From Siphonodentalium dalli (lineage: Eukaryota > Mollusca > Scaphopoda > Gadilida > Siphonodentaliidae): a stretch of DNA of 64,000 nucleotides. Below, piece by piece: positions 201 through 40,742 of this stretch; within the stretch, counting starts at the first letter, position 1, and every line of letters begins with the position of its first letter. The stretch is taken from the NCBI GenBank assembly GCA_032622095.1, contig CP136068.1:50400443-50464442 (forward strand). Reading direction: 5' to 3'. The notes below the pieces were generated by a model. The model was not told where the DNA came from. It was given only the letters and a program-made list of their open reading frames with translations, and made no database searches. Both the position numbers and the translations under genes were made by a program.

Positions 201-208
201 TAAGATGA

Positions 209-845: not shown

Positions 846-849
846 CATG

Positions 850-1840: not shown

Positions 1841-2125
1841 TTTCGAAAACTTGGAAGGGGCTATATGATCGCGTCCCTGTCATATACATGTAGATGCCCG
1901 CTGGGTGGCACCGCACGAAATTGCAAGGATTTCCTAGTGGGCGCCATGGTTCTGGCTACGCAGTCGAGTTAGTAACAAAAAGTTTTATTTTGACACACCA
2001 TGCACGACTTCAGCCCAATTTTCGAAAATTTGGAAGGGGCTATATGGTCGCGTCCATGTCCAATAGATGCCCGCTGGGCGGCACCGCAAGAAATTGCAAG
2101 GATTCCCGGGTGGCGGCCATCTTTC
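1828..2125. repeat. ~170-bp direct repeat inside module A
   Basis: The block CACGACTTCAGCCCAA through GGCACCGCACGAAATTGCAAGG occurs at about 1,828-1,930 and again, diverged, at about 2,001-2,103. Both copies are followed by related GTGGGCGCCATGG / GTGGCGGCCATC sequence. The pair is inherited in every later copy of module A. Confidence 0.8.
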
Positions 2126-2773
2126 TGGTCACATAAATGATAAATGAAATACCATCTGAGAATAGGGAACTGGGAACTGGGCACTGGGATGGAATTCATG
2201 GAGATGTTTTTTGTGTGCAAAACTGTACTTTGTCATTGTGGGCATTAAATATATATTGCCCTAACTAATGCACACATGTGTTAAAATCGATAGTAAATAC
2301 TAACCTGCTTCCCCGACGTATTTTCAATTCTGTGACCTAACAAAACTTCCCAAATCCAAATTTAGCTCTTAGAGACTTTATGTTGTCTCCCGGAAGACGC
2401 CGATCCGCGGAGAGTACGATTTTAGTTTATACCGTGTGATAGTTGGACGTTCCGTTGCGCCTGTGAACGTGCCTGTATAGTTGCTTATGCAAATATTAGC
2501 AGATTTTCATTTCGTGCATGAAATATTTTCTTTCACCTGGCAAAACATAGGATTACATGTTTACCGAAGCACGCCATGAACTTAAATATCATCTCGATTT
2601 AATGGCACCGTATAGGCACCGTGTGATTTGGCTGTCATGGAAACAGTCACATAATAATAACATCGGCATAGGTGAAATTCTGCCCACGGCTGAGTAGGAG
2701 CACCGTCAATGCTAACGGCAACTGGGAGAAACAGCAGGCAGGATTTGGGGAAATGGTTAATTGTCTTTGTTAA

Positions 2774-3203
2774 CCCTTTCAGTGACAGGTGCCGATCTCA
2801 TCGGCCCTAATTTACGGTCTGTAAAATCGGCCCTAAATTTTTTTTTTTTTTTTTAAATGGGTTGAATGTTTTTGGGTATGCTTAAGCATGCTATAGCGAC
2901 TTTAAAAACAAACTGGATAAAACCTTAGGGCGTGTTTTAACTCAAAACTATCACCAAGTATTCATAGTATTAATTTGGATGCTCATTAAAAACGTAAGAT
3001 TCCCTGGCACTATATCTACAAAATAAGTCTGTTAAAGAATATAAGAATTTTTTTTTTTAAATAATAACAAATGATGAAAAATTGTTATGCCAATGCATTC
3101 TCTTATATATGCGAGTCGACGTATGGTCGACTCGCATATTTAAGAGAATGCATGGCACAGGGTATAAGGGTTGATACACAAATCGGACCTGGCATTGAAA
3201 GGG
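2774..3203. mobile_element. piggyBac-type MITE, copy 1
   Basis: The element is flanked on both sides by TTAA (2,770-2,773 and 3,204-3,207). Its ends are inverted: left CCCTTTCAGTGACAGGT, right (reverse complement) CCCTTTCAATGCCAGGT. A TTAA target duplication with CCC-starting ends is the known hallmark of the piggyBac superfamily. It is 430 bp long with no transposase frame, so it is a non-autonomous copy. Off-centre, a 27-bp palindrome with a GTCGAC-containing apex lies at about 3,093-3,153. Confidence 0.85.
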
Positions 3204-4189
3204 TTAAGGGGAAATTTTTCAACTTATGGCCACTTAACTTTAAAAGCTTGACTCACATTAGGGCATTTCGAACATACTATACACTCAAATATCAATATAA
3301 ATTATATCTGAACGTATATCAGGAAGCCAAGACAGTAGACAGTCGGTTTCATAGTGTTCAATGCGGCGTATCCAACTAGTATCCATATAATATAACATTT
3401 ATTTGATACATTTACTTGAAAAATGTACAAAAATTACTCGACAACGACAATTTATAATTTCGCATTCCGGCCAATCTGCCACCCGTAACATTACATCGTA
3501 CACAACAGACTTTAAAATAATGGAAATCCGGTTACCTTATTCTACGACTCAGATACTAAAGAAACCAACAACAACATTTGAGTACAATATCCCGTTAAGT
3601 TGTTACCCAGTCTATTCGTTCTATTTCTCAGCATCCCCCCTATCTCTGTGTTGCCTCTCTTTTTCCTTTTGTTTTGTTTTGAACACGTCTTAGTTTTCCC
3701 TCTATAGTTTATATATCGCTCTGTTCTTACATGTATAGCAACGTGTTTTTGTTCGTTTGTCATCATTTTGTATGTAATTATGTTCCTGTTGATTAGTGGT
3801 ATTTCAATATTCTCAATTATTCAAGGAAATCAATTACATAGTACAGCACTACTATGTCTCTCTGCATATGCATATAGAGCAATAAATAATAAAAATAAAA
3901 CATATAAAAAATGTATTATATTTAACAGCTAAATTTGCTTTGATGCGCCGAAGCGGCTTCCCATTTTTTTAACCCGTAACCACTTCAGTCGGTTGTAACA
4001 TCACGGGAACTTAATCAAATTGAGTAAAGTGTTCCATGAAAAGAACTCGCTAATTAGTTTAATAACGAGTCATGATCGAATTTTCGCTAATTAATTACAA
4101 GCGCCAGAAACCGTCGACGGTGCTAAGAAAGAATGTGGTGAATTTAGCACAAACGGCGCAAATAAATTATCACAATCAAAAGGCTTGTG

Positions 4190-4250
4190 TGTATAAATGA
4201 GTTCCCGATGCATATAAATAATACACCCTTCAGTCGAACTGGATCAATTC
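4190..4250 (+). promoter_or_regulatory. core promoter of the 91-residue gene, copy 1
   Basis: Two TATAAA boxes lie at 4,192-4,197 and 4,213-4,218. Initiator-like sequences follow (TTCAGTC near 4,229-4,235, TCAATTC near 4,244-4,250). The spacing fits transcription starts somewhere in 4,222-4,250. A strong splice donor lies about 150 bases downstream. The same arrangement is kept in the copy near 35,160-35,215. The exact start is inferred, not seen. Confidence 0.5.
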
Positions 4251-4398
4251 ACAAATTGCCAGGAGATTTGAGTTTTGAGCCACAGCATTCAATTAATGAG
4301 AATAGATGTGACAGCATAAACTACAAATTAAAGGTAGCCATTTATAAGCTGTTCTGAGCAAGTTATCTGGGGAGATCGTCGAAGTTAAAGTAACTCAG
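4225..4398 (+). other. predicted 5'UTR exon of the 91-residue gene, copy 1
   Basis: The stretch from the TATA-type promoter ends in CAG|GTAGGT, a good splice donor with GT at 4,399-4,400. The next good acceptor on this strand, a T-run followed by CAG at 5,603-5,605, lies just before an ATG. That pairs a non-coding first exon with the coding exon across a 1.2-kb intron. The copy near 35,193-35,366 keeps the donor. Confidence 0.45.
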
Positions 4399-5605
4399 GT
4401 AGGTTAGATATTAAAAATTACAATTAACTTTTAATATGCATTTGATTTAAGATTTTTGCCAAATAATTTCATCAGGATCCATGTTTATGATTTTTTTCTT
4501 AGATTAAAAAACCAAAAATCATAACGTTTTTAAATTTGTTTTGCTTTATAAATATCGACCAAACGTTGCAATGTCAAACGTCAATTTTGAATGATATGGT
4601 AATGAATTTTACGAGTTAATGTTTTCGCCCGTATAGCGTCTGCCGTATAAAAACACATTAACACCTTGGAAGAACAGAACGATGTTGGTGAACAGATATC
4701 GCTATCTACTAACACTTTAGTTGTTGTTTCTAACGGACATTCCAGATTTCAACACCCATGTCTTATCAGTACACTATCGATCTGCCCCAATCTGATTGAC
4801 ATTCTGATATGACCAAACTGAGTGTTAACATCATTTGTGACATATCTGAAATTGTACATAAACGCCGTTTACTACAACACTCCTCACAAAACACACATAT
4901 TTGCCACAAGTTGTCTGCGGGAGCCAGATTCAGGTACAGTATATATACTATTTGTTTGTGTCGTGATCTGAATGTCAAGTTGTTTGATGCAGTACAGAAG
5001 TTCGTTACTCGTATACTGGGCGCGTTTCTAAATAAAAAATATGGGAAGGTAGTTGGCACCGGGACACGCATACTATAGAAATAAATTATATGTTTTAAAT
5101 AGTTACTGATCGTGTTTTTGGCCCAAATGACCTCCTCCACTACCAATGCAGGTTTAATCATTGTACTGGTTCATCGGTTAATGCGGTCTGTGATTTTGTT
5201 ATTTACTAAATACTTTTAATTTAAGAGTTACACTAAATGTAAATATTCCTGATTACACCCAGTTCGCAATATCCCCCTGTAGTATTTCAGGGCGGTCGAA
5301 CAATAGAACATCTTGTAATTTCGATTTTCTTTGGTTATTGAAAATAATGACAATTTAACATCTTTCTGTGTTACCTTATGGACTTTATTTTCTGATGCAA
5401 GGGCAATAAGTCGTAACGGCCTGTTGCGCTTTGAACTTTAATATATATTATATACTTTCATCTTTATATTATTTGTGTTTTTGTTCTGTTTAGTTCAAAT
5501 ATAATATTGTTAAAACCAAATGAATACAGCATGCTGCGCCATTCTGCCAAAACATAAGAACACATAAAATGCAATGTAATAAACGGTTTGTTCCTTTTTT
5601 TTCAG

Positions 5606-7039
5606 TTCTTGAAAAATGGAAGACATCACTGCATCTCTAGGATTCCTTGATATAAGTTTGGATAATGTGATTATGGAAATAGAATTCATGGTAAGTGGTA
5701 ACCAATGAAATTTGGGGTGTCTAATAGTAATCCCCAACTTTAGTCAAAATTGTCAACAGTTGGAAATGTCATGCCCAAAACAACTGAAGTTGCTAATTTG
5801 AGACCAAATTTAGCTTGAGATTGTAAAGATAGTTTGAGAATCCAACCACAGATTGTGATAGTAAATGAGCTGATTAGCTTCCATTGTTTCAAAACATTTA
5901 ACATTTACCAGCAATTTACACAAAATGTAACCAGGAATGTACATATCTCTGTCTACCAACAAGTGGGAAAAGATCATGAAAATACTACGACATGCAAGTA
6001 CAACCAGAGTTATAATGCTCTGGAAGAATGACTTTACAGTTGTACACGTATCTCCAGTAGACATGATTAGATTGAGAACTTCTAACTTCATTCACTGGTA
6101 GCTACCTATAATGTAATCGTGAAGATTAGAATATTGATCCCCACTTTCATTCAAAATTTAGACTGACATGGCCATCAGAGGTGCGATTTTCCAGCGAAAT
6201 TAACCGTTTGTGAAGTTTCCCTCCTTCCATGAAACCGACATCCTCATAACATGGCCGAGAATTATTACGATTGTAAACCTTATAGCACGATCGTGGATAC
6301 CTGCAAGAGCCATACAAAAAGCGAATTAATACGATGCTTTGACAAAACACATGTGCAATAAATTTAGAAATCTTAACGAAGACATGGTTCTGCTCGATTG
6401 TCGAAACCGGACCAAACCGGTGTTGCGACAAAAAAATAACGCAGCCCATATTTAATCCAGGAAACTAAACACTTGCGCAAGGGATATTGCTCGGGTGGTT
6501 ATACGATTTCTAGATATGGCATATCAGAAATCAAGTCCACGTGGCAGTAGATCACTCCAAATGATCGTATTCTGGTTTATGTATATCATGATGGGTTATG
6601 ATGCTTTGTGTTGAATGCATACTATATAGACGGAATTCCACATGTCATATTGTAAATAAGGTATATATATTGTAACTGCATTATCTCTGTACCTATATAC
6701 GTACTATTTTAATTGAATTGCCCATAACGACTGAGATGAGATAATCCAGACCCCCATCATGTAACTATTTACTGGGTACGTCATATTTATATTTTGTTTA
6801 TATATTTTTATAATTTATACCATCTTCTAATTTTTTAGCCAATCTCTGAGCTGAAGTTCATTTACGTCGGAAAATATAAGCGATCGAGAACCAGAATGTC
6901 GAGAGCCAGACGCGCCTTGTTCGTGGACACACCGAAGACAGGTCGTGACGGAAATCGTCGGAAATCTCTACGGAAACGAACGATGGATGACGAAGACGAG
7001 CAAGTTTACAGCCAATCAAAACGAAGAAGAACGTGCTAA
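5606..7039 (+). CDS. 91-residue basic, probably nuclear protein, copy 1 (two coding exons)
   Basis: Coding exon 1 runs from ATG at 5,616 to 5,690 (25 codons) and ends at a GTAAGT donor. Exon 2 starts after a TTTTTTAG acceptor at 6,839 and stops at TAA 7,037-7,039 (66 codons). Both boundaries are in phase 0. AATAAA follows immediately at 7,040-7,045. The N-terminus is acidic and hydrophobic (MEDITASLGFLDISLD). The middle carries RRALF, which fits the RxL cyclin-binding consensus, then VDTPK, a TPxK type CDK site. The C-terminus has basic clusters (RRKSLRKR and SKRRR) around an acidic DDEDE patch, as in nuclear proteins. I recognise no family, so the cell-cycle link is inference from short motifs. 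The start is the first ATG after the acceptor. Confidence 0.6.
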
Positions 7040-7683
7040 AATAAAGTTAGTGTTTTATTTTTTTTCTCGTCGCAAATTGCATAATAGTGCAGTCTAACAA
7101 AAAACCTCTATGTAAAATCCGTGTCTCGGTCCTAAATTTCCGATAGTTAAATTTTCAATTCAATGAGAAATTTGTTGTTACAACAAAATTTGAATATTTT
7201 CCTATTTTTGAAATGTGCCATCATTTGGAAAATTTTCAACCATATTTTTTAACAGTTGGAAGGTTCAAATTACCAGTTTGTGCAAATTCTAACCAAATGG
7301 GAGGGGTGGGCTGTAAATGGGACTCACCGGACGCGAGGATCGATTATTGTTATATATCATAATTTATGTGTTATGCATTATATGTTTAATTTATCTGTCA
7401 TTTGCCACTGCCTGTATTGGTGTATTTGCAATAAACTATATATAATATCTATCTATCTATGTATCTATCCATACTATATGGATTCCACACAAATTGCGAT
7501 TAGGGGAAACGGTAATATGTGAAAACCAAACTTCTTTGAATTCAGAATTCATATTTATATTTCAGAGAAGTATTAATAAGTTGTTATATATACATTCTCC
7601 GTGATAGAAACAATGTGTAAATGATTACACAATTGCATGTCCCGTAGATATGGAAGCCCAGGGATCATAGTGTATTTATAACA

Positions 7684-8157
7684 TTAAAGGTACTCAATCC
7701 GTAAAGAGGGTCCCCATCTTAACAGATTCCAACAACAACAATCCGATCAGAGGGTCCTATATTACTATTTCTTTGGCTTTGGGGGTAAAAAATATTTGAT
7801 TCGAGTCGAGGAACCCATCAAACAAAGCTCAGAGTTAATAGATATTGATTTTTGAAATTTGTTATGTTCTCGAGATGAGTACTAATAACTGCCGTAATCT
7901 GCTCTGGATGTGTACTCCAAATCTATTCAACCAGACAAGGATGGATAACTCTAAAATCAAGTGGTAATTTTAACGCAATTTTGACTGAGTTCTGGGCCAG
8001 ATAGTATTCCCGATATGAAAAATAATAGATTTCTAAAATCGATATCTAACAAATCTGAGCTTTGATGGGTGACTTCCTCGACTCGAATCAAATATTTTTG
8101 ATCCCCGAAGCCATTGAAATAGTAATTGAGAGGAGTTTTATCGGATTGAGTACCTTT
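7684..8157. mobile_element. inverted-repeat (foldback/MITE-like) element, copy 1
   Basis: The left end AAAGGTACTCAATCCG is matched by the right end CGGATTGAGTACCTTT. The arms extend inward for about 180 bases with mismatches, including GATTCGAGTCGAGGAA on the left and TTCCTCGACTCGAATC on the right. No protein is encoded. The target duplication is unclear. Other copies are at 13,627-14,100, 22,838-23,140 (left arm missing) and 38,708-39,182. A ~60-bp end fragment lies near 63,740-63,791. Confidence 0.75.
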
Positions 8158-8435
8158 GACTGTTAACTTTAATCAGAGTCGACGAACCCCAGTGAACCCA
8201 ATCTATTTCTATAAATATATTATACACAGCACACACCCTTTCACTTAAAGGCCCACTTAATTTTCAAGTCACCGATTATTTTTTTTAAGTTCCTTGATAT
8301 ACGGTTTTAACAACAATCTATGCCATAAAATATGATTAAAATACTATAATTCATCACCATTTGAAACATAAGTGTCTCAGAAGACATAGTAAGGTCCCGG
8401 TTATGGCTCCCAGAACGCAACAGAATAACAAAAAA

Positions 8436-8508
8436 TGTATTTTCAATGGAAGGGGAATAACTATATCTTTAAGATATAAAGTTATTCCCTCTCCATTGAA
8501 AAAAATAC
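8436..8508. repeat. large near-perfect hairpin, copy 1
   Basis: The left arm GTATTTTCAATGGAAGGGGA continues through AATAACTATATCTT and pairs with the right arm AAGATATAAAGTTATTCCCT through CCATTGAAAAAAATAC. This gives about 33 paired bases with almost no loop. It is kept at 14,379-14,451, 23,419-23,491 and 39,459-39,532. It lies about 230 bases before the acceptor of the candidate 3' exon. Confidence 0.8.
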
Positions 8509-8740
8509 AATTTGCACTACAATCCAGATGAAACTGAAGCACAAAAACACGTCGATAACTCAACAAAAACAACATATTCACAGTTTATTCGACCGGATAA
8601 GTTGATAATACAATGCGTTGGAGTTTCCTCTTTCAAATGGAATCTAATAAGGCATATATTTTATATTTGTGATCTTGAGGTTCGAAATTTAAGTGTGCCT
8701 TTAAGTATATATATTATTTTACTCTTCCCTTTATTTGCAG

Positions 8741-8902
8741 TCAGGAAAACACAAAAGCAAGAAGGCGAACGAGGAACAGAACATCAGACGCAATGACGGC
8801 GCGTGCACGGGTGGATCCATGACACAGAATCGATGGGTATCCCCACAATGGAGACTGTTCGATATGAATCAATGGACAGGTTCAGTTTTACGCACTTTTT
8901 GA
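8741..8902 (+). CDS. candidate alternative 3' coding exon, copy 1
   Basis: A good acceptor (CCCTTTATTTGCAG, ending at 8,740) opens a phase-0 frame of 53 codons to TGA at 8,900-8,902. It begins SGKHKSKKANEEQ and ends WRLFDMNQWTGSVLRTF. The phase matches the donor of the 25-codon exon at 5,616-5,690, so it could be an alternative last exon of the 91-residue gene. It could also be the last exon of a separate gene. An AATAAA lies at 9,199-9,204. Sequence is unchanged over the frame in all four B copies, while indels appear soon after the stop in copy 4. No family recognised. Confidence 0.4.
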   Translation, partial: SGKHKSKKANEEQNIRRNDGACTGGSMTQNRWVSPQWRLFDMNQWTGSVLRTF

Positions 8903-9209
8903 CGACGCGTGACGTGTTGAAAACAATAGATGAAAAAGAAAGGGTTGTTTCAGTGGCTTGGCGACAGGAAGAGGGAAGAATAATCTCAGCTTCCAAAAAG
9001 AAAGAAAGGAAAAAGAACGAAAAGAACGACATACGGACAGCGAAGGAGGGAGACACGCGCAATCAACTACAGTTTTTGTGTCATGGCAAAAATATTATGT
9101 TAAAGTATATACATGTATATTCAATTGTTGACGATACTGCTTGTTGTCTGTTATTGTAATTTTATGCAAACATACGTGTAGTGCTTGCGATTCAGTAGAA
9201 TAAACCAAA

Positions 9210-9980
9210 AGCTTGTTATAATTTGATGGTCGATTTTTCATCCAAATAACACGCCTGTCCAACTGGTCCTGCTTCTGGTGACCCATTTCGGTAATGCGTA
9301 TAGCCTGTTGAACAATCCTATTCCAACGATGAAGTTGGTTCGTTTTCTACCACGCATGTGTCGTCAATTCCCAAACTCACCGAACTCATTGATGTACTTG
9401 GACTACTTCTGTAGGGTTCTGAAGTTTACTAACTTTTCCTTTGATTTGATTCCCTAAGACCATAATGTATACCCACGCTTCTTGGATTGGCCATTATCCT
9501 AAGCATCTTTGTGGCACCCAGCAGTCTCGTCGAAGAGCTACCACCAGATGCGAACAAAACTCGCGGTGCTAGTTTGTGGGCATGTGTCATGATAGAGGAA
9601 ATGAGATCTGATCACGAACCGTCCTATACCCTGGGGTAAGTTTCATACACAGACAGGATATTATGCGTGGCGGTCCTTTCTTTGTGTGCTAATGAAGGTT
9701 TGAGTTGTTATCATCCTCGCTCTGGGTAGTGGCCGGTATGATTCAAGAAAATATGAATGCCATCAGCAGAAATATGACGTGTTCAACACGAAGAACAGCC
9801 AGAGGAATGTTGTATTAATGAGATCTTGCAATCAGGGCAACACACATGTTGGGTACACCGAGTGGTTTCTTGGCAACACCACCATTCCGACCATATGCCG
9901 CAGACATAACATCAATATTCTAAGCTATCTTGCGGGATCATAATGGAACATCTCACGTTCGATCTTTGATGGATTTGCAG
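9210..9980. other. B-module tail, no gene recognised
   Basis: This is unique-looking sequence between the AATAAA near 9,200 and the minisatellite. A GGG|GTAAGT donor-like string is at about 9,635, but no exon could be attached to it. The same bases recur in B2 and B3, and as far as about 9,731 in B4. Confidence 0.4.
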
Positions 9981-10315
9981 TCATACGCGAGGTTGGTTCT
10001 CATATTATCCTCCGGTCATACGTGGGGGAGGTTCTGATATGAACACATTATTCACTGGTCATACGCAGTGGAGGTTCATACTATCCACCGGTCATACATG
10101 GTGGAAGTTCTCATATGAACATATAATCCGCCAGTCATACGCGGTGGAAGTGTATATTATCTGCCGGTCATACACGGTGGAGGTTCTCATATGAACATAT
10201 TATTCGCCGGATAATATGAACCTCCACCGCGTATGACCGGCAGATAATATGTTCATATGAGAACCCCCCCCCGCGTATGACTGGCAGATAATATGAGAAC
10301 CTCCACCGCATATGA
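9980..10315. repeat. minisatellite M, short copy
   Basis: Units of about 36-43 bases are built on GGTCATACGCGGTGGAGGTT and CATATTATCCGCC. The first ~225 bases run in one direction. At about 10,204 the units turn into the reverse complement. This copy holds about eight units, against roughly 35-45 in the copies at 15,924 and 24,960, and its ends match theirs. It therefore looks like an internal contraction. Confidence 0.9.
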
Positions 10316-10658
10316 ATGGCGGACACATAAGTTTTTAAGTCTATAAACACTATTTGATTTGAATATTCTTTTGAATAGTCTTACCATTGACATATTCATT
10401 CGTTCAAACCAGTTGATCTATTTTGTAACTTGGCTTTTAGTCGCTGGGCTCCGGCATCTGGGCTTTTAGTCACAACTGAAATAAAAATAAGTGAGAATAT
10501 CTTGGAGCGAATTTCTGCAACAATTTCACCGCCTGGTGGGACCCATTTAAAATAATACATTCCCTGTGTCTAATCCTACATTTTGATATACCATACGTCC
10601 CATTATATTGAATATACCAGCTGAAATCGATCCTGTAATTGTAAACATCGAGTCTATA
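10316..10658. repeat. module F plus first ~90 bases of E, copy 1
   Basis: This matches 17,373-17,705 and 26,605-26,937. The match to E stops at 10,658, where module B copy 2 begins. GGCTTTTAGTC occurs twice in it. No gene seen. Confidence 0.85.
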
Positions 10659-11548
10659 TTTAGTTGTTGTTTCTAACGGACATTCCAGATTTCAACACCC
10701 ATGTCTTATCAGTACACTATCGATCTGCCCCAATCTGATTGACATTCTGATATGACCAAACTGAGTGTTAACATCATTTGTGACATATCTGAAATTGTAC
10801 ATAAACGCCGTTTACTACAACACTCCTCACAAAACACACATATTTGCCACAAGTTGTCTGCGGGAGCCAGATTCAGGTACAGTATATATACTATTTGTTT
10901 GTGTCGTGATCTGAATGTCAAGTTGTTTGATGCAGTACAGAAGTTCGTTACTCGTATACTGGGCGCGTTTCTAAATAAAAAATATGGGAAGGTAGTTGGC
11001 ACCGGGACACGCATACTATAGAAATAAATTATATGTTTTAAATAGTTACTGATCGTGTTTTTGGCCCAAATGACCTCCTCCACTACCAATGCAGGTTTAA
11101 TCATTGTACTGGTTCATCGGTTAATGCGGTCTGTGATTTTGTTATTTACTAAATACTTTTAATTTAAGAGTTACACTAAATGTAAATATTCCTGATTACA
11201 CCCAGTTCGCAATATCCCCCTGTAGTATTTCAGGGCGGTCGAACAATAGAACATCTTGTAATTTCGATTTTCTTTGGTTATTGAAAATAATGACAATTTA
11301 ACATCTTTCTGTGTTACCTTATGGACTTTATTTTCTGATGCAAGGGCAATAAGTCGTAACGGCCTGTTGCGCTTTGAACTTTAATATATATTATATACTT
11401 TCATCTTTATATTATTTGTGTTTTTGTTCTGTTTAGTTCAAATATAATATTGTTAAAACCAAATGAATACAGCATGCTGCGCCATTCTGCCAAAACATAA
11501 GAACACATAAAATGCAATGTAATAAACGGTTTGTTCCTTTTTTTTCAG

Positions 11549-12982
11549 TTCTTGAAAAATGGAAGACATCACTGCATCTCTAGGATTCCTTGATATAAGT
11601 TTGGATAATGTGATTATGGAAATAGAATTCATGGTAAGTGGTAACCAATGAAATTTGGGGTGTCTAATAGTAATCCCCAACTTTAGTCAAAATTGTCAAC
11701 AGTTGGAAATGTCATGCCCAAAACAACTGAAGTTGCTAATTTGAGACCAAATTTAGCTTGAGATTGTAAAGATAGTTTGAGAATCCAACCACAGATTGTG
11801 ATAGTAAATGAGCTGATTAGCTTCCATTGTTTCAAAACATTTAACATTTACCAGCAATTTACACAAAATGTAACCAGGAATGTACATATCTCTGTCTACC
11901 AACAAGTGGGAAAAGATCATGAAAATACTACGACATGCAAGTACAACCAGAGTTATAATGCTCTGGAAGAATGACTTTACAGTTGTACACGTATCTCCAG
12001 TAGACATGATTAGATTGAGAACTTCTAACTTCATTCACTGGTAGCTACCTATAATGTAATCGTGAAGATTAGAATATTGATCCCCACTTTCATTCAAAAT
12101 TTAGACTGACATGGCCATCAGAGGTGCGATTTTCCAGCGAAATTAACCGTTTGTGAAGTTTCCCTCCTTCCATGAAACCGACATCCTCATAACATGGCCG
12201 AGAATTATTACGATTGTAAACCTTATAGCACGATCGTGGATACCTGCAAGAGCCATACAAAAAGCGAATTAATACGATGCTTTGACAAAACACATGTGCA
12301 ATAAATTTAGAAATCTTAACGAAGACATGGTTCTGCTCGATTGTCGAAACCGGACCAAACCGGTGTTGCGACAAAAAAATAACGCAGCCCATATTTAATC
12401 CAGGAAACTAAACACTTGCGCAAGGGATATTGCTCGGGTGGTTATACGATTTCTAGATATGGCATATCAGAAATCAAGTCCACGTGGCAGTAGATCACTC
12501 CAAATGATCGTATTCTGGTTTATGTATATCATGATGGGTTATGATGCTTTGTGTTGAATGCATACTATATAGACGGAATTCCACATGTCATATTGTAAAT
12601 AAGGTATATATATTGTAACTGCATTATCTCTGTACCTATATACGTACTATTTTAATTGAATTGCCCATAACGACTGAGATGAGATAATCCAGACCCCCAT
12701 CATGTAACTATTTACTGGGTACGTCATATTTATATTTTGTTTATATATTTTTATAATTTATACCATCTTCTAATTTTTTAGCCAATCTCTGAGCTGAAGT
12801 TCATTTACGTCGGAAAATATAAGCGATCGAGAACCAGAATGTCGAGAGCCAGACGCGCCTTGTTCGTGGACACACCGAAGACAGGTCGTGACGGAAATCG
12901 TCGGAAATCTCTACGGAAACGAACGATGGATGACGAAGACGAGCAAGTTTACAGCCAATCAAAACGAAGAAGAACGTGCTAA
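11549..12982 (+). CDS. 91-residue basic protein, copy 2 (no promoter)
   Basis: Coding exons at 11,559-11,633 and 12,782-12,982 are identical to copy 1 in sequence, splice sites and AATAAA. The upstream non-coding exon and TATA region are absent, because the duplication began between the donor of that exon and the first coding exon. About 890 bases of B precede the acceptor, and before that lies E/F sequence. Expression would need read-through splicing from copy 1 or a new promoter. The frame is intact. Confidence 0.55.
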
Positions 12983-13626
12983 AATAAAGTTAGTGTTTTA
13001 TTTTTTTTCTCGTCGCAAATTGCATAATAGTGCAGTCTAACAAAAAACCTCTATGTAAAATCCGTGTCTCGGTCCTAAATTTCCGATAGTTAAATTTTCA
13101 ATTCAATGAGAAATTTGTTGTTACAACAAAATTTGAATATTTTCCTATTTTTGAAATGTGCCATCATTTGGAAAATTTTCAACCATATTTTTTAACAGTT
13201 GGAAGGTTCAAATTACCAGTTTGTGCAAATTCTAACCAAATGGGAGGGGTGGGCTGTAAATGGGACTCACCGGACGCGAGTATCGATTATTGTTATATAT
13301 CATAATTTATGTGTTATGCATTATATGTTTAATTTATCTGTCATTTGCCACTGCCTGTATTGGTGTATTTGCAATAAACTATATATAATATCTATCTATC
13401 TATGTATCTATCCATACTATATGGATTCCACACAAATTGCGATTAGGGGAAACGGTAATATGTGAAAACCAAACTTCTTTGAATTCAGAATTCATATTTA
13501 TATTTCAGAGAAGTATTAATAAGTTGTTATATATACATTCTCCGTGATAGAAACAATGTGTAAATGATTACACAATTGCATGTCCCGTAGATATGGAAGC
13601 CCAGGGATCATAGTGTATTTATAACA

Positions 13627-14100
13627 TTAAAGGTACTCAATCCGTAAAGAGGGTCCCCATCTTAACAGATTCCAACAACAACAATCCGATCAGAGGGTCC
13701 TATATTACTATTTCTTTGGCTTTGGGGGTAAAAAATATTTGATTCGAGTCGAGGAACCCATCAAACAAAGCTCAGAGTTAATAGATATTGATTTTTGAAA
13801 TTTGTTATGTTCTCGAGATGAGTACTAATAACTGCCGTAATCTGCTCTGGATGTGTACTCCAAATCTATTCAACCAGACAAGGATGGATAACTCTAAAAT
13901 CAAGTGGTAATTTTAACGCAATTTTGACTGAGTTCTGGGCCAGATAGTATTCCCGATATGAAAAATAATAGATTTCTAAAATCGATATCTAACAAATCTG
14001 AGCTTTGATGGGTGACTTCCTCGACTCGAATCAAATATTTTTGATCCCCGAAGCCATTGAAATAGTAATTGAGAGGAGTTTTATCGGATTGAGTACCTTT
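13627..14100. mobile_element. inverted-repeat element, copy 2
   Basis: Full copy of the element at 7,684-8,157, with both AAAGGTACTCAATCCG-type ends. The 9,040-bp duplication starts inside it, at 13,798, near the end of its left arm. Confidence 0.75.
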
Positions 14101-29461: not shown

Positions 29462-29609
29462 AAATAATACATTCCCTGTGTCTAATCCTACATTTTGATA
29501 TACCATACGTCCCATTATATTGAATATACCAGCTGAAATCGATCCTGTAATTGTAAACATCGAGTCTATTTTTAGCTGTTTTATCGGCGCGTGTTTGCGT
29601 GTTCGCCAT
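29268..29609 (-). CDS. 113-codon junction frame, second copy, doubtful
   Basis: Identical to the frame at 20,036-20,377. Kept by duplication, with no independent coding support. Confidence 0.12.
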   Translation of the reverse strand: MANTQTRADKTAKNRLDVYNYRIDFSWYIQYNGTYGISKCRIRHRECIIYTVYAIFLICIRTKSIYILMFFLFVAVFDGWRYFHRIPTAKANRIFNGILYSNVDVGFFIVSES

Positions 29610-32093
29610 TACAATATTCGCACTAAAACAGCCATATTGTATCTAAAAACGAATGCACAGTATTCCACTGCGTTATTTGATACCCAAAACTTGTTGTTTG
29701 CTAGCGTATTCATCGAGAAATCTAAATTCTAAACATTAATGTCGAACGCAGTTTTTCGTGTTTGTGGCATTTTATGTTAGGTCAGTTGTCGACCGAATAA
29801 TGTAACTTCCGGTGTCCGGTCAGTGACGGGGTTAATATGTGTGAATAGAGCGAATGTGGACCTTTCGTGAGACACCAATAGGAGCCCTATACGCGCTGTA
29901 TTCCTCGAGATATCGGCCGTCCCACGCAATTTGAAAATCCCGTCCCGCAGATTGTCATGCTATCCCAAATTCCACCCCATGTTAGGTCAGTTATCGATCA
30001 AATAATGCAACTTCTTATATCCGGTCAGTGGCGGGGTTAATATGTGTGGATAGGGCGAATGTGGGCCTTTCGTTAGACACCAAAATGAGCCCCCTACGGG
30101 CGTATTCCTCGAGATACCGGCCGTCCCACGCAATTTGAAATTTTGTCCCGCAGATTGTCGTTTTGTCCCATATCCCATCCCATCCCGCAGATTGTCAGAT
30201 TCGAAAACTTGGAAGGGGCTATATGATCGCGTCCCTGTCATATACATGTAGATGCCCGCTGGGTGGCACCGCACGAAATTACAAGGATTTCCTAGTGGGC
30301 GCCATGGTTCTGGCTACGCAGCCGAGTTAGTAACAAAAAGTGTTATTTTGACACACCATGCACGACTTCAGCCCAATTTTCGAAAATTTGGAAGGGGCTA
30401 TATGGTCGCGTCCATGTCCAAAAGATGCCCGCTGGGCGGCACCGCACAAAATTGCAAGGATTCCCGGGTGGCGGCCATCTTTCTGGTCACATAAATGATA
30501 AATGAAATAGCATCTGAGAATAGGGAACTGGGCACTGGGATGGAATTCATGGAGATGTTTTTTGTGTGCAACACTGTACTTTGTCATTGTGGGCATTAAA
30601 TATATATTGCCCTAACTAATGCGCACATGTGTTAAAATCGATAGTAAATACTAACCTGCTTCCCCGACGTATTTTCAATTATGTGACCTAACAAAACTTC
30701 CCAAATCCAAATTTAGCTCTTAGAGACTTTCTGTTGTCTCCCGGAAGACGCCGATCCGCGGAGAGTACGATTTTAGTTTATACCGTGTGATAGTTGGACG
30801 TTCCGTTGCGCCTGTGAACGTGCCTGTTTAGTTGCTTATGCAAATATTAGCAGATTTTCATTTCGTGCATGAAATATTTTCTTTCACCTGGCAAAACATA
30901 GGATTACATGTTTACCGAAGCACTCCATGAACTTAAATATCATCTCGATTTAATGGTACCGTATAGACACCGTGTGATTTGGCTGTCATGGAAACAGTCA
31001 CATAATAATAACATCGGCAAGGGTGAAATTCTGCCCACGGCTGAGTAGGAGCACCGTCAATGCTAACGGCAACTGGGAGAAATGCTAACAGCAGGCAGGA
31101 TTTGGGGAAATGGTTAAATGTATTTGTTAACCCTTTCAGTGCCAGGTGCCGATCTCTTCGGCCCTAATTTACGGTCTGTAAAATCGGCCCTAAAAAAAAC
31201 AAACAAACAAACAAATGGGTTGAATTTTTTTTGGGTATGCTTAAGCATGCTATAGCGAATTTAAAAACAAACTGGATAAAACCTTAGGGGCGTGTTTTAA
31301 CTCAAAACTATCACCAAGTATTCATAGTAATAATTTTGATGCCCATGAAAAACGTAAGATTCCCTGGCACTAAACCTACAAAATAAGTCTGTTAAAGAAT
31401 ATAAGAAATGTTTTTTTTAAATAATAACAAATGATGAAAAATTGTTAGGCCAATGCATTCCCTTATATATGCGAGTCGACCTATGGTCGACTCGCATATA
31501 TAAGAGAATGCATTGGCACAGGGTATATGGGTTGATACAAAAATCGAACTGGCACTGAAAGGGTTAAGGGGAAATTTTTCAACTTATGGCCACTTAACTT
31601 TGAAAGCTTGACTCACATTAGGGCATTCGAACATACTATACACTCAAATATCAATATCAATTATATCTGAACGTATATCTGGAAGCCAAGACAGTAGACA
31701 GTCGGTTTCATAGTGTCCAATGCGGCGTATCCAACTAGTATCCATATAATATAACATTTATTTGATACATTTACTTGAAAAATGTACAAAAATTACTCGA
31801 CAACGACAATTTGTAATTTCGCATTCCGGCCAATCTGCCACCCGTAACATTACATCGTACACAACAGACTTAAAATAATGGAAATCCGGTTACCTTAGTC
31901 TACGACTCAGATACTATAAAGAAACCAACATCAACATTTGAGTACAATATCCCGTTAAAGATACGGTTGGCCTTTGCGGTGGGTATCCTGTGAAAATATC
32001 TCCACCCGTCAAAAACCGCCACAAACAGAAAGAACATCAAAATGTAGATAGACTTTGTCCGTATACAAATAAGAAATATCGCATAAACAGTAT
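29462..32093. repeat. 2,632-bp unit D2' (array 2), chimeric
   Basis: The first part has D2-type bases (CATATTGTATC, CCCAAAACTTG, CACCAATAGGAG, CTTCTTATATCC, GAAATTACAAGG). The later part has D1-type bases (CACCTGGCAAAA at ~30,890, TTTACGGTCTG at ~31,170, intact palindrome, and connector J). This is what a product of unequal crossing-over between D1- and D2-type units looks like. Confidence 0.9.
31131..31563. mobile_element. piggyBac-type MITE in unit D2'
   Basis: 433 bp between TTAA sites, palindrome intact at about 31,456-31,516. Confidence 0.85.
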
Positions 32094-32241
32094 AAATAAT
32101 ACATTCCCTGTGTCTAATCCTACATTTTGATATACCATACGTCCCATTATATTGAATATACCAGCTGAAATCGATCCTGTAATTGTAAACATCGAGTCTA
32201 TTTTTAGCTGTTTTATCGGCGCGTGTTTGCGTGTTCGCCAT
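31900..32241 (-). CDS. 113-codon junction frame, third copy, doubtful
   Basis: Identical to the other two copies and again crosses A, J and E. Confidence 0.12.
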   Translation of the reverse strand: MANTQTRADKTAKNRLDVYNYRIDFSWYIQYNGTYGISKCRIRHRECIIYTVYAIFLICIRTKSIYILMFFLFVAVFDGWRYFHRIPTAKANRIFNGILYSNVDVGFFIVSES

Positions 32242-34702
32242 TACAATATTCGCACTAAAACAGCCATATTGTATCTAAAAACGAATGCACAGTATTCCAC
32301 TGCGTTATTTGATACCCAAAACTTGTTGTTTGCTAGCGTATTCATCGAGAAATCTAAATTCTAAACATTAATGTCGAACGCAGTTTTTCGTGTTTGTGGC
32401 ATTTTATGTTAGGTCAGTTGTCGACCGAATAATGTAACTTCCGGTGTCCGGTCAGTGACGGGGTTAATATGTGTGAATAGAGCGAATGTGGACCTTTCGT
32501 GAGACACCAATAGGAGCCCTATACGCGCTGTATTCCTCGAGATATCGGCCGTCCCACGCAATTTGAAAATCCCGTCCCGCAGATTGTCATGCTATCCCAA
32601 ATTCCACCCCATGTTAGGTCAGTTATCGATCAAATAATGCAACTTCTTATATCCGGTCAGTGGCGGGGTTAATATGTGTGGATAGGGCGAATGTGGGCCT
32701 TTCGTTAGACACCAAAATGAGCCCCCTACGGGCGTATTCCTCGAGATACCGGCCGTCCCACGCAATTTGAAATTTTGTCCCGCAGATTGTCGTTTTGTCC
32801 CATATCCCATCCCATCCCGCAGATTGTCAGATTCGAAAACTTGGAAGGGGCTATATGATCGCGTCCCTGTCATATACATGTAGATGCCCGCTGGGTGGCA
32901 CCGCACGAAATTACAAGGATTTCCTAGTGGGCGCCATGGTTCTGGCTACGCAGCCGAGTTAGTAACAAAAAGTGTTATTTTGACACACCATGCACGACTT
33001 CAGCCCAATTTTCGAAAATTTGGAAGGGGCTATATGGTCGCGTCCATGTCCAAAAGATGCCCGCTGGGCGGCACCGCACAAAATTGCAAGGATTCCCGGG
33101 TGGCGGCCATCTTTCTGGTCACATAAATGATAAATGAAATAGCATCTGAGAATAGGGAACTGGGCACTGGGATGGAATTCATGGAGATGTTTTTTGTGTG
33201 CAACACTGTACTTTGTCATTGTGGGCATTAAATATATATTGCCCTAACTAATGCGCACATGTGTTAAAATCGATAGTAAATACTAACCTGCTTCCCCGAC
33301 GTATTTTCAATTATGTGACCTAACAAAACTTCCCAAATCCAAATTTAGCTCTTAGAGACTTTCTGTTGTCTCCCGGAAGACGCCGATCCGCGGAGAGTAC
33401 GATTTTAGTTTATACCGTGTGATAGTTGGACGTTCCGTTGCGCCTGTGAACGTGCCTGTTTAGTTGCTTATGCAAATATTAGCAGATTTTCATTTCGTGC
33501 ATGAAATATTTTCTTTCACCTGACAAAACATAGGATTACATGTTTACCGAAGCACTCCATGAACTTAAATATCATCTCGATTTAATGGTACCGTATAGAC
33601 ACCGTGTGATTTGGCTGTCATGGAAACAGTCACATAATAATAACATCGGCAAGGGTGAAATTCTGCCCACGGCTGAGTAGGAGCACCGTCAATGCTAACG
33701 GCAACTGGGAGAAATGCTAACAGCAGGCAGGATTTGGGGAAATGGTTAAATGTATTTGTTAACCCTTTCAGTGCCAGGTGCCGATCTCTTCGGCCCTAAT
33801 TTACAGTCTGTAAAATCGGCCCTAAAAAAAAAAAAACAAACAAACAAATGGGTTGAATTTTTTTTGGGTATGCTTAAGCATGCTATAGCGAATTTAAAAA
33901 CAAACTGGATAAAACCTTAGGGGCGTGTTTTAACTCAAAACTATCACCAAGTATTCATAGTAATAATTTTGATGCCCATGAAAAACGTAAGATTCCCTGG
34001 CACTAAACCTACAAAATAAGTCTGTTAAAGAATATAAGAAATGTTTTTTAAAAATAATAACAAATGATGAAAAATTGTTAGGCCAATGCATTCCCTTATA
34101 TATGAGAATGCATTGGCACAGGGTATATGGGTTGATACAAAAATCGGACCTGGCACTGAAAGGGTTAAGGGGAAATTTTTCAACTTATGGCCACTTAACT
34201 TTAAAAGCTTGACTCACATTAGGGCATTTCGAACATACTATACACTCAAATATCAATATCAATTATATCTGAACGTATATCTGGAAGCCAAGACAGTAGA
34301 CAGTCGGTTTCATATTGTCCAATGTGGCGTATCCAACTAGTATCCATATAATATAACATTTATTTGATACATTTACTTGAAAAATGTACAAAAATTACTC
34401 GACAACGACAATTTGTAATTTCGCATTCCGGCCAATCTGCCACCCGTAACATTACATCGTACACAACAGACTTTAAAATAATGGAAATCCGGTTACCTTA
34501 GTCTACGACTCAGATATTATAAAGAAACCAACAACAACATTTGAGTACAATATCCCGTTAAGTTGTTACCCAGTCTATTCGTTCTATTTCTCAGCATCTC
34601 CCATATCTCTGTTTTTGTGTTGCCTCTCTGTTTCCTTTTGTTTTGTTTTGAACACGTCTTAGTTTTCCCTCTATAGTTTATATATCGCTCTGTTCTTACA
34701 TG
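32094..34702. repeat. unit D3' (array 2), reads on into full-length A
   Basis: Carries D2-type bases throughout, including CACCTGAC (~33,520), TTTACAGTCTG and the collapsed palindrome, at an offset of 11,865 from D2. Unlike D2 it is not cut after CTTACATG but continues through the rest of module A to the promoter and B4. Confidence 0.95.
33763..34164. mobile_element. piggyBac-type MITE in unit D3', palindrome lost
   Basis: 402 bp between TTAA sites, with the same collapsed palindrome as the copy at 21,899-22,299. Confidence 0.85.
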
Positions 34703-35154
34703 TATAGCAACGTGTTTTTGTTCGTTTGTCATCATTTTGTATGTAATTATGTTCCTGTTGATTAGTGGTATTTCAATATTCTCAATTATTCAAGGAAATC
34801 AATTACATAGTACAGCACTACTATGTCTCTCTGCATATGCATATAGAGCAATAAATAATAAAAATAAAACATATAAAAAATGTATTATATTTAACAGCTA
34901 AATTGCTTTGATGCGCCGAAGCGGCTTCCCATTTTTTTAACCCGTAACCACTTCAGTCGGTTGTAACATCACAGGAAATTAATCAAATTGAGTAAAGTGT
35001 TCCATGAAGAGAACTCGCTAATTAGTTTAATAACGAGTCATGATCGAATTTTCGCTAATTAATTACAAGCGCCAGAAACCGTCGACGGTGCTAAGAAAGA
35101 ATGTGGTGAATTTAGCACAAACGGCGCAAATAAATTATCACAATCAAAAGGCTT

Positions 35155-35366
35155 GTGTGTATAAATGAGTTCCCGATGCATATAAATAATACACCCTTCA
35201 GTCGAACTGGATCAATTCACAAATTGCCAGGAGATTTGAGTTTTGAGCCACAGCATTCAATTAATGAGAATAGATGTGACAGCATAAACTACAAATTAAA
35301 GGTAGCCATTTATAAGCTGTTCTGAGCAAGTTATCTGGGGAGATCGTCGAAGTTAAAGTAACTCAG
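35155..35366 (+). promoter_or_regulatory. promoter and 5'UTR exon of the 91-residue gene, copy 3
   Basis: Two TATAAA boxes, the CAGTCG initiator-like motif and the CAG|GTAGGT donor (exon end 35,366) are all kept from the first copy. This copy therefore has the same upstream structure as copy 1. Confidence 0.45.
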
Positions 35367-36635
35367 GTAGGTTAGATATTAAAAATTACAATTAACTTTT
35401 AATATGCATTTGATTTAAGATTTTTGCCAAATAATTTCATCAGGATCCATGTTTATGATTTTTTTCTTAGATTAAAAAACCAAAAATCATAACGTTTTTA
35501 AATTTGTTTTGCTTTATAAATATCGACCAAACGTTGCAATGTCAAACGTCAATTTTGAATGATATGGTAATGAATTTTACGAGTTAATGTTGTCGCCCGT
35601 ATAGCATCTTCCGTATAAAAACACATTAGCACCTTGGAAGAAGCAAACAATGTTGGTGAACAGATATCACTATCTACTAACACTTTAGTTGTTGTTTCTA
35701 ACGGACATTCCAGATTTCAACACCCATGTCTTATCAGTACACTATCGATCTGCCCCAATCTGATTGACATTCTGATATGACCAAACTGAGTGTTAACATC
35801 ATTTGTGACATATCTGAAATTGTACTTAAACGCCGTTTACTACATCACTCCTCACAAAACCAACATATTTACCCCAAGTTGTCTGCGGGAGCCAGATTCA
35901 GGTACAGTATATATACTATTTTTTTGTGTCGTGATCTGAATGTCAAGTTGTTTGATGCAGTACAGAAGTTCGTTACTCGTATACTGGGCGCGTTTCTAAA
36001 TAAAAAAACATGGGAAGGTAGTTGGCATCGGGACACGCATACTATAGAAATAAATTATATGTGTTAAATAGTTACTGATCGTGTTTTTGGCCCAAATGAC
36101 CTCGTTATTTTGTTAAGTAATGCCTTATTCTCAGCCACTACCAATGCAGATTTAATCATTGTACTGGTTCATCGGTTAACGCGGTCTGTGATTTTGTTAT
36201 TTATATTTATTACTAAATACTTTGAATTTAAGAGTTACACTAAATGTAAATATTCCTGATTACATGCATTTCGCAATATCCCCCTGTAGTCTGTCAGGGC
36301 GATCGAACTATAGAACATCTTGTAATTTCGATTTTCTTTGGTTATTGAAAATAATGACAATTTAACATGTTACAATACTCTCTTCTTTCTGTGTTACCTT
36401 ATGGACTTTATTTTCTGATGCAAGGGAAATAAGTCGTAACGGCCTGTTGCGCGATCCTCTTTTGAACTTTAACATATATTATATACTTTCATCTTTATAT
36501 TATTTGTGTTTTTGTTCTGTTTAGTTCAAATCAAATATTGTTAAAACCAAATGAATACAGCATGCTGTGCCATTATGCCAAAACATAAGAAAACATAAAA
36601 TGCAATGTAATAAACGGTTTGTTCCTGTTTTTCAG

Positions 36636-38068
36636 TACTTGAAAAATGGAAGACATCACTGCATCTCTAGGATTTCTTGACATAAGTTTGGATAATGTGA
36701 TTATGGAAATAGAATTCATGGTAAGTGGTAACCAATGAAATTTGGGGTGTCTAAGAGTAATCCCCAACTATAGTCAAAATTGTCAACAGTTGGAAATGTC
36801 ATGCCCAAAACAACTGAAGTTGCTAATTTGAGACCAAAATTAGCTTGATATTGTAAAGATAGTTTGAGAATCCAACCACAGATTGTGATAGTAAATGAGC
36901 TAATTAGCTTCCATTGTTTCAAAACATTTAATATTTACCAGCAATTTACACAAAATGTAACCAGAAATGTACATATCTCTGTCTACCAACAAGTGGGAAA
37001 AAATCATGAAAATGCTCCGACGTGCAAGTACAACCAGAGTTATAATGTTCTGAAGAATTACTTTACAGATGTACACGTATCTCCAATAGACATGATTAGA
37101 TTGAGAACTTCTAACTTCATTCACTTGTAGCTACCTATGATGTAATCGTGAAGATTAGAATATTGATCCCCACTTTCATTCAAAATTTAGACTGACATGG
37201 CCATCAGTGGTGCGATTTTCCAGCGAAATTAACCGTTTGTGAAGTTTCCCTCCTTCCATGAAACCGACATCCTCATAACTTGGCCGAGAATTATTACGAT
37301 TGTAAACCTTATAGCACGATCGTGGATACCTGCAAGAGCCATACAAAAAGCGATTTAATACGATGCTTTGACAAAACACATGTGCAATAAATTTAGAAAT
37401 CTTAACGAAGACATGGTTCTGCTCGATTGTCGAAACCGGACCAAACCGGTGTTGCGACAAAAAAATAACGCAGCCCATATTTAATCCAGGAAACTAAACA
37501 CTTGCGCAAGGGATATTGCTCGGGTGGTTATACGATTTCTAGATATGGCATATCAGAAATCAAGTCCACGTGGCAGTAGATCACTCCAAATGATCGTATT
37601 CTGATTTATGTATATCATGATGGGTTATGATGCTTTGTGTTGAATGCATACTATATAGACGGAATTCCACATGTCATATTGTAAATAAGGTATATATATT
37701 GTAACTGCATTATCTCTGTACCTATATACGTACTATTTTAATTGAATTGCCCATAACGACTGAGATGAGATAATCCAGACCCCCATCATGTAACTATTTA
37801 CTGGGTACGTCATATTTATATTTTGTTTATATATTTTTATAATTTATACCATCTTCTAATTTTTTAGCCAATCTCTGAGCTGAAGTTCATTTACGTCGGA
37901 AAATATAAGCGATCGAGAACCAGAATGTCGAGAGCCAGACGCGCCTTGTTCGTGGACACACCGAAGACAGGTCGTGACGGAAATCGTCGGAAATCTCTAC
38001 GGAAACGAACGATGGATGACGAAGACGAGCAAGTTCACAGCCAATCAAAACGAAGAAGAACGTGCTAA
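36636..38068 (+). CDS. 91-residue basic protein, copy 3
   Basis: Coding exons 36,646-36,720 and 37,868-38,068, with the same phase-0 splice sites and AATAAA. Against copies 1 and 2 the protein changes at one residue (Tyr to His in the QVYSQ segment). Two further coding differences (TTC/TTT and GAT/GAC) are silent. The surrounding introns have more changes and indels. That is compatible with constraint on the protein, though the sample is tiny. RRALF, VDTPK and the basic C-terminus are unchanged. Confidence 0.6.
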
Positions 38069-39766
38069 AATAAAGTTAGTGTTTTATTTTTTTTTCTCGT
38101 CGCAAATTGCATAATAGTGCAGTCTAACAAAAAAACTCTATGTAAAATCCGTGTCTCGGTCCTAAATTTCCGATAGTTAAATTTTCAATTCAATGAGAAA
38201 TTTGTTGTTACAACAAAATTTGAATATTTTCCTATTTTTGAAATGTGCCATCATTTGGAAAATTTTCAACCATATTTTTTAACAGTTGGAAGGTTCAAAT
38301 TACCAGTTTGTGCAAATTCTAACCAAATGGGAGGGTGTAAATGGGACTCACCGGACGCGAGGATCGATTATTGTTATATATCATAATTTATGTGTTATGC
38401 ATTATATGTTTAATTTATCTGTCATTTGCCACTGCCTGTATTGGTGTATTTGCAATAAACTATATATAATATCTATCTGTCTATGTATCTATCCGTACTA
38501 TATGGATTCCACACAAATTGCGATTAGGGGAAACGGTAATATGTGAAAACCAAACTTCTTTGATTTCAGAATTCATATTTATATTTCAGAGAAGTATTAA
38601 TAAGTTGTTATATATACATTCTCCGTGATAGAAACAATGTGTAAATGATTACACAATTGCATGTCCCGTAGATATGGAAGCCCATGGATCATAGTGTATT
38701 TATAACATTAAAGGTAGTCAATCCGTAAAGAGGGTCCCCATCTCAACAGATTCCAACAACAACAATCCGATCAGAGGGTCCTATATTACTATTTCTTTGT
38801 CTTTGGGGGTAAAAAATATTTGATTCGAGTCGAGGAACCCATCAAACAAAGCTCAGAGTTATTAGATATTGATTTTTGAAATTTGTTATGTTCTCGAGAT
38901 GAGTACTAATAACTGCCGTATTCTGCTCTGGATGTGTACTCCAAATCTATTCAAACAGACAAGGATGGATAACTCTAAAATCAAGTGGTAATTTTAACGC
39001 AATTTTGACTGAGTTCTGGGCCAGATAGTATTCCCGATAATGAAAAATAATAGATTTCTAAAATCGATATCTAACAAATCTGAGCTTTGATGGGTGACTT
39101 CCTCGACTCGAATCAAATATTTTTGACCCCCGAAGCCATTGAAATAGTAATTGAGAGGAGTTTTATCGGATTGAGTACCTTTAACTGTTAACTTTAATCA
39201 GAGTCGACGAACCCCAGTGAACCCAATCTATTTCTATAAATATATTATACACAGCACACACCCTTTCACTTAAAGGCCCACTTAATTTTCAAGTCACCGA
39301 TTATTTTTTTATAGTTCCTTGATATACGGTTTTAACAACAATCTATGCCATAAAATATGATTAAAATACTATAATTCATCACCATTTGAAACATAAGTGT
39401 CTCAGAAGACATAGTAAGGTCCCGGTTATGGCTCCCAGAATGCAACAGAATTAAAAAAAAATGTATTTTCAATGGAAGGGGAATAACTATATCTTTAAGA
39501 TATAAAGTTATTCCCTCTCCATTGAAAAAAATACAATTTACACTACAATCCAGATGAAACTGAAGCACAAAAACACGTCGATAACTCAACAAAAACAACA
39601 TGTTCACAGTTTATTCGACCGGATAAGTTGATAATACAATGCTTTGGAGTTTCCTCTTTCAAATGGAATCTAATAAGGCATATATTTTATATTTGTGATC
39701 TTGAGGCTCGAAAATTAAGTGTGCCTTTAATTATATATATTATTTTACTCTTCCCTTTATTTGCAG

Positions 39767-39928
39767 TCAGGAAAACACAAAAGCAAGAAGGCGAACGAGG
39801 AACAGAACATCAGACGCAATGACGGCGCGTGCACGGGTGGATCCATGACACAGAATCGATGGGTATCCCCACAATGGAGACTGTTCGATATGAATCAATG
39901 GACAGGTTCAGTTTTACGCACTTTTTGA
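39767..39928 (+). CDS. candidate alternative 3' coding exon, copy 4
   Basis: The frame is identical to the other copies even though B4 is otherwise diverged. Differences begin just after the stop (GTGTCGTG for GTGACGTG, and a lost A in the following A-run). This is the best internal evidence that the 53 codons are real. Confidence 0.45.
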   Translation, partial: SGKHKSKKANEEQNIRRNDGACTGGSMTQNRWVSPQWRLFDMNQWTGSVLRTF

Positions 39929-40742
39929 CGACGCGTGTCGTGTTGAAAACAATAGATGAAAAGAAAGGGTTGTTTCAGTGGCTTGGCGACAGGAAGAGGG
40001 AAGAAGAATCTCAGCTTCCAAAAAGAAAGAAAGGAAAAAGAACGAAAAGAACGACATACGGACAGTGAAGGAGGGAGACACGCGCAATCAACTACGGCAA
40101 AAATATTATGTTAAAGTATATATATTCAATTGTTGACGATACTGCTTGTTGTCTGTTATTGTAATTTTATGCAAACATACGTGTAGTGCTTGCGATTCAG
40201 TAGAATAAACCAAAATCTTGTTATAATTTGATGGTCGATTTTTCATCCAAATAACACGCCTGTCCAACTGGTCCTGCTTCTGGTGACCCATTTCGGTAAT
40301 GCGTATAGCCTGTTGAACAATCCTATTCCAACGATGAAGTTGGTTCGTTTTCTACCACGCATGTGTCGTCAATTCCCAAACTCACCGAACTCATTGATGT
40401 ACTTGGACTACTTCTGTAGGGTTCTGAAGTTTACTAACTTTTCCTTTGATTTGATTCCCTAAGACCATAATGTATACCCACGCTTCTTGGATTGGCCATT
40501 ATCCTAAGCATCTTTGTGGCACCCAGCAGTCGTCTCGTCGAAGAGCTACCACCAGATGCGAACAAAACTCGCGGTGCTAGTTTGTGGGCATGCATGTGTA
40601 ATGATAGAGGAAATGAAATCTGATCACGAACCTCCCTAACCCTGGGGTAAGTTTCATACACAGACAGGATATTATGCGTGGCGGTCCTTTCTTTGTGTGC
40701 TAATGGAGGTTTGAGTTGTTATCATCCTCGCTCTGGGTAGTG

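Follow-up and report, generated by a model that had tools for sequence, protein, structure and literature searches.

Probable successive tandem duplications, with short joints and a hybrid unit, in a nested segmental array

The window analysed here, a stretch of 64,000 nucleotides, raises the question of how a few sequence modules came to recur in direct order across positions 1842-40743. A preliminary description had called this region a nested tandem segmental duplication with exact offsets of 5,943, 2,632 and 9,040 (9,232) and with some copies differing by only a few bases per 5 kb, and self-BLAST bears out each of these points. The 5,943 offset relates 4716-10070 to 10659-16013 without gaps and with 3 mismatches in 5,355 positions; the 9,040 offset, rising to 9,232, relates 13796-22696 to 22836-31958; and the 2,632 offset separates the starts 17598 and 20230, as well as 26830, 29462 and 32094. 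Offsets of 11,864 and 30,990 are composites of the others. At the lengths seen, chance is no concern for the repeats of the array. What the region appears to record is duplication and unequal crossing-over of an ordinary sort, not a novel type of element. GC content is 30-45% across the window.

The module names used below (P, Q, R, S, T, U, M, V, W1 and W2) are our own and were assigned from the self-comparison and from reading of the junctions; primes mark modules of the older paralogous series, m is a contracted form of the minisatellite M, and J1-J3 are the joints. Read from left to right, the array consists of the following parts.

1842-10658, plus strand: copy A, P Q R S T U m V W1, with the contracted minisatellite at 10000-10330
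10659-17597, plus strand: copy B, S T U M V, beginning at J1, with the minisatellite at 15943-17371
17598-20229, plus strand: unit E1, type alpha, 2,632 bp, W1 W2 P' and a 136-bp filler at the end
20230-22835, plus strand: unit E2, type beta, 2,606 bp, W1 W2 P' Q', without filler; it continues beyond the equivalent of 3598 to that of 3733 (module Q')
22836-26829, plus strand: copy C, T U M V, beginning at J2, with the longest minisatellite (24983-26603)
26830-29461, plus strand: unit E3, type alpha, W1 W2 P' and filler
29462-32093, plus strand: unit E4, beta/alpha hybrid, W1 W2 P' and filler at the end
32094-34701, plus strand: unit E5, type beta, W1 W2 P' Q'
34702-40742, plus strand: remainder of copy D, R' S' T', an old paralogue of copy A, adjoining a reverse-transcriptase fragment

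W1 is the first 109 bases of the E unit, and the full ancestral unit, with the minisatellite counted as in copy B, sums to 10,551 bp. The large copies are all in direct orientation and adjacent; the oldest pair, A and D, is direct too, with the right end of D missing. At 40743 copy D breaks off with its unit incomplete, and the first duplication would therefore have been either tandem and then truncated, or spaced. The missing part (9732-10000) has no match in the window other than those in copies A, B and C.

Five joints, at 10659, 20230, 22836, 29462 and 32094, can be read directly, and their positions differ by no more than 2 bases from the values given earlier. At J1 (10659), the joint of the 5,943-bp tandem duplication, the end of W1 is joined to S, with TTTAG (5 bp) common to both parents and base 10658 fitting neither. 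At J2 (22836), the joint of the 9,040-bp tandem duplication, Q' is joined to T, with two common bases, TG. At J3 (20230, 29462, 32094), P' is joined to W1 through the filler, for which no further match was found in a search of the window.

20095-20230, plus strand: 136-bp filler at J3, identical at 29327-29462 and 31959-32094

The parental ends thus share no extended homology at any of the three joints, and such short homology together with the filler points to end joining or template switching. An older joint, W2-P', occurs at 18336 and at four equivalent positions, and since it is present in all five E units, it predates their multiplication. We read it as the probable trace of the oldest duplication; its right parent lies outside the window, and the microhomology figures apply to J1-J3.

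The edges of the duplicated units vary by event (1842, 3598, 3733, 4716, 7853, and the start and end of W1), and the J3 and J2 breakpoints are about 140 bp apart. J1-J3 have six breakpoints, and two pairs of these, each drawn from different joints, are no more than 142 bp apart. When breakpoints were placed at random on a circle of 10,551 bp, 3.4% of 200,000 trials (0.034) had two or more pairs this close, a weak statistic, as the 142-bp threshold was picked post hoc. Joints of this appearance could also have been produced by the closing of circles at J1, J2 and J3, followed by re-insertion in place by homology: circle-closing joints resemble those of tandem duplications, and both microhomology and filler fit them. 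This variant of the tandem-duplication explanation, which does not exclude it, would however require re-insertion at the same place in each event, which nothing in the sequence calls for, and we hold it to be improbable.

The preliminary description had proposed at least two waves of duplication. That duplication was repeated is supported, while the comparison of copies yields three divergence classes, plus an unequal crossover, in place of two waves. The oldest class comprises copy A versus D or the E units (1.2-3.8% by module). The middle class separates alpha (E1, E3) from beta (E2, E5) by 0.7-0.9% over the module corresponding to 1842-3598; the whole-unit figure of 2.3-2.7% is higher because the filler is then aligned against Q'. 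The youngest class contains copies A, B and C compared with each other, and E units of the same type (0.03-0.11%). In modules S and T the private substitutions number one in A, two in B and one in C, which lacks S. The pairwise alignment of A and D contains 150 mismatches in 7,803 positions (1.92%) and is patchy, with 2.68% divergence before 6110 and 1.03% after it; the index of dispersion of the mismatches, 2.57, exceeds the highest value (2.05) among 2,000 permutations. This patchiness fits either gene conversion or an origin of the two copies from different alleles.

The E units retain a further event, absent from the preliminary description. Within 17598-20094, 19 substitutions separate alpha from beta; four other positions (17951, 18478, a gap at 19340, and 19710) vary without distinguishing alpha from beta. 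In E4 the first seven of the 19 sites (7/7; 17775-18417 in E1 coordinates) are in the beta state and all 12 later ones (19027-20067) in the alpha state, with one switch. The chance of such a single switch is 2e-5 if the sites are taken as independent, and 5e-4 after sites within 10 bases are merged, which leaves 5 and 9. The types are further told apart by 36 gap columns, and E4 is alpha at every one of them. The unit is thus, to judge from its sites, a recombinant of alpha and beta, and the series of alpha (E3), hybrid (E4) and beta (E5) is the expected yield of one misaligned crossover between alpha-beta pairs. The same pattern would result if E4 had arisen by a separate duplication and its left part had then undergone gene conversion by a beta unit, a route that takes one more event than a single crossover. 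Site 18478, inside the switch interval, deviates from this order, with T in copy A and E1 and G in E2-E5; a single crossover does not explain it, and it would need a small conversion or a second mutation.

E1 differs from both E2 and E5 at 14 gap-free sites, among them 18478; copy A has the E1 base at nine of these, the beta base at three and neither at two, so beta appears to have changed more. A short palindrome in the E unit (19590-19650) is kept in copy A and in alpha, and 33 bp of it are lost in beta. The E units also contain a miniature inverted-repeat element (MITE), which we take to be piggyBac-like; it is placed away from the unit edges, and its 19-nt termini are exact in all five E units and not exact in copy A.

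33759-34168, plus strand: MITE in E5, with perfect 21-nt inverted termini and TTAA at both ends

The earlier alternatives for the array were a very active duplication hotspot or an assembly error. Under the latter, a haplotype or a graph loop would have been written repeatedly, or two haplotypes, now A and D, falsely joined. Copy number in such arrays is often wrong in assemblies, the divergence of A and D is patchy as between alleles of an outbred species, and the remaining copies hardly differ from one another. A false join, however, should fall where homology is long, while the joints here have 2-5 shared bases or filler; moreover, the W2-P' joint recurs in all five E units and is older than their multiplication, copies A, B and C carry private substitutions, and E4 is an ordered hybrid. 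We therefore consider an assembly error unlikely and a real series of duplications better supported; the copy number itself is provisional, as read from the assembly. As for the hotspot, repeated duplication at one place is upheld, and its being very active is only suggested, by several structural events at or below about 0.1% divergence and by breakpoints near a palindrome.

Taken together, the locus, in which no coding content was detected, has probably grown by serial direct tandem duplications through non-homologous or microhomology-mediated joining, followed by homologous unequal crossing-over inside the array. In the order that we propose, an old direct duplication of a unit of about 10.5 kb would have come first, its copies now being 1-4% apart. 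A 2,632-bp tandem duplication with the 136-bp filler would then have given the two unit types, 0.7-0.9% apart. The tandem duplications of 9,040 and 5,943 bp (0.03-0.11% apart) may have followed; which of them came first is left free by copies A, B and C, as these are distinguished solely by private sites. One unequal crossover would next have produced the hybrid unit at 29462-32093, and two minisatellite contractions would complete the series. The joints would have been made by end joining or template switching, possibly at stalled forks, with homologous unequal exchange taking part once copies existed. Starting from P...W2 P'...T', the changes J3, J2 and J1, one added E unit and two contractions reproduce all 43 entries of the module string, flanks included, with the last three changes placed by hand and the order of J1 and J2 free. 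This module-level history is sufficient, though not necessarily the only possible one. The array is most likely real, a well-resolved new example of a known process, and a single locus would here keep the successive steps of the birth of an array (a first duplication, nested non-homologous duplications and a crossover hybrid), with readable joints and relative ages.

A possible promoter of these events is the minisatellite M, in which related units stand in one orientation and then in the opposite one, with periods of about 33-152 and longer (Tandem Repeats Finder). Its palindromic part is mostly absent from copy A.

16770-17343, plus strand: palindromic part of M in copy B, 81% self-complementary
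26005-26575: equivalent in copy C, 82% self-complementary, within the folded stretch 25900-26620

As single-stranded DNA, the 721-base stretch of copy C that includes the palindrome folds at -291.7 kcal/mol, against a mean of -96.05 kcal/mol for 20 shuffles. Over the first ~210 bases of M, copies A and C agree, and the corresponding part of B contains a gap and a short stretch of odd sequence; beyond these bases copy A lacks nearly all of the middle of M. The rise of the period from 9,040 to 9,232 had been ascribed to minisatellite growth. Since A and C share these first bases, the 192-bp change is better explained by a loss in copy B than by growth in C.

In copy B, W1 starts 227 bp and ends 336 bp beyond the end of M (17371). 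The palindrome thus lies near two duplication breakpoints, and fork stalling at it is a plausible but unproven cause. More tentatively, the palindromic minisatellite might be a natural germline fork barrier that repeatedly seeds kilobase-sized tandem duplications a few hundred bases away, that is, a persistent hotspot, probably with copy-number polymorphism within the species; this is a possibility that we would not favour at present. Should the palindrome prove to be the cause, it would do in nature what engineered fork barriers do when they give rise to small tandem duplications. The primary report of such duplications, at Tus/Ter in Brca1-mutant mouse cells, is said to be that of Willis in 2017. 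In these cells, according to the portion of the literature concerned with them, a stalled Tus/Ter fork gives tandem duplications of 2-6 kb with non-homologous or microhomology joints (PMC6067765). The array is similar in the small size of its duplications and in its joints, whereas the Tus/Ter events were induced in cell culture and those described here are inherited, span 2.6 to about 10.5 kb and have a fork barrier that is only proposed (PMC6067765). Long inverted repeats are described as more numerous at human deletion breakpoints than in controls (PMC4319165), and hairpins at inverted repeats have been proposed to stall forks in budding yeast (PMC12708500), at least in the relevant passages of these reports; by analogy, the palindrome of the array may stall forks too.

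Two natural arrays offer further comparisons. As outlined in part of the CUP1 study, yeast CUP1 arrays arose by several independent tandem duplications of one locus, with joint homology of 3 bp or less and clustered breakpoints, and changes in array size were ascribed to unequal crossover (PMC4232551). Several duplications of one locus, nearly homology-free joints, weakly clustered breakpoints and a probable unequal crossover are seen here as well; the CUP1 events, however, belong to different strains, involve a selected gene and have repeats of about 1.2-2 kb, whereas here they are nested on one sequence, with larger units and no gene found (PMC4232551). The sea urchin Sp185/333 cluster, in the sections of the source that treat its structure, is built of segmental duplications in tandem, 4.2-4.6 kb long and edged by simple repeats (PMC5103432). 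It is likewise an invertebrate case of tandem segmental duplication with simple repeats at the edges, but there most units carry immune genes and GAT repeats form the bounds, while here no gene was found and one group of edges is close to a palindromic minisatellite (PMC5103432).

The copies could also stem from a transposable element or from satellites able to move by themselves, such as those of the rolling-circle type; some rolling-circle elements have head-to-tail order and an internal minisatellite, as the array does. Constant termini in all copies were not found, and a transposon edge that sets the unit edges was rejected, as the edges differ between events. In the left flank, copy A and E1 (1-10660 and 17378-20230), a Pfam scan of 54 of the 62 open reading frames (ORFs) of at least 60 aa, eight being left out as lying in simple repeats or overlapping others, gave one weak hit to each of six families, the best at E = 0.007, and no transposition protein. 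Non-autonomous elements lack such a protein anyway. The differing edges, together with the lack of a protein domain in the scanned ORFs, make this origin very unlikely, and serial tandem duplication is preferred.

To the right of the array (40743-64000), the scan covered 64 of the 91 ORFs of at least 62 aa; the other 27, except 42824-43018, lie in simple repeats or overlap others. At these size limits (60 and 62 aa) short exons could escape. Reverse transcriptase was the only convincing match (4/64 ORFs); an AcrF8 match (E = 0.00072, one of the 64) was taken as chance. ARAGORN (bacterial code) found no tRNA in the window, and Rfam gave nothing at gathering scores; a 34-base minisatellite unit had 0 exact matches in viral contigs. 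The reverse-transcriptase fragments, the many minisatellites and a longest stop-to-stop ORF of 179 aa suggest that the window is eukaryotic.

An RVT_1 match at 41057-41512 (E = 2.8e-10) lies beside the end of copy D, and the region around it, about 40747-42735, is probably one piece of a LINE. A comparison of 40703-40752 with 42700-43000 gave a longest common string of 8 bases, which is unconvincing as a target-site duplication. In all there are two broken reverse-transcriptase regions, 40747-42735 on the plus strand and 46414-47215 on the minus strand, with best RVT_1 E-values of 2.8e-10 and 1.9e-10, respectively. Just outside the array is a direct duplication (43864-44338 and 44775-45252), with an aligned length of 479, 95% similarity and a spacing of 911 bp. 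An inverted repeat of about 70% identity (48814-49535 and 50957-51716) occurs in a region with a GC skew of 0.11-0.21 (48-52 kb). An ORF at 56643-57077 on the minus strand matches DUF6589 weakly (E = 0.024; 13.8 bits, where the cut-off is 27), with a 27-bp minisatellite nearby at 57214-57383. Other minisatellites outside the array are located at 846-1501 (periods 67-84) and 61625-62446 (periods 61-198 and multiples).
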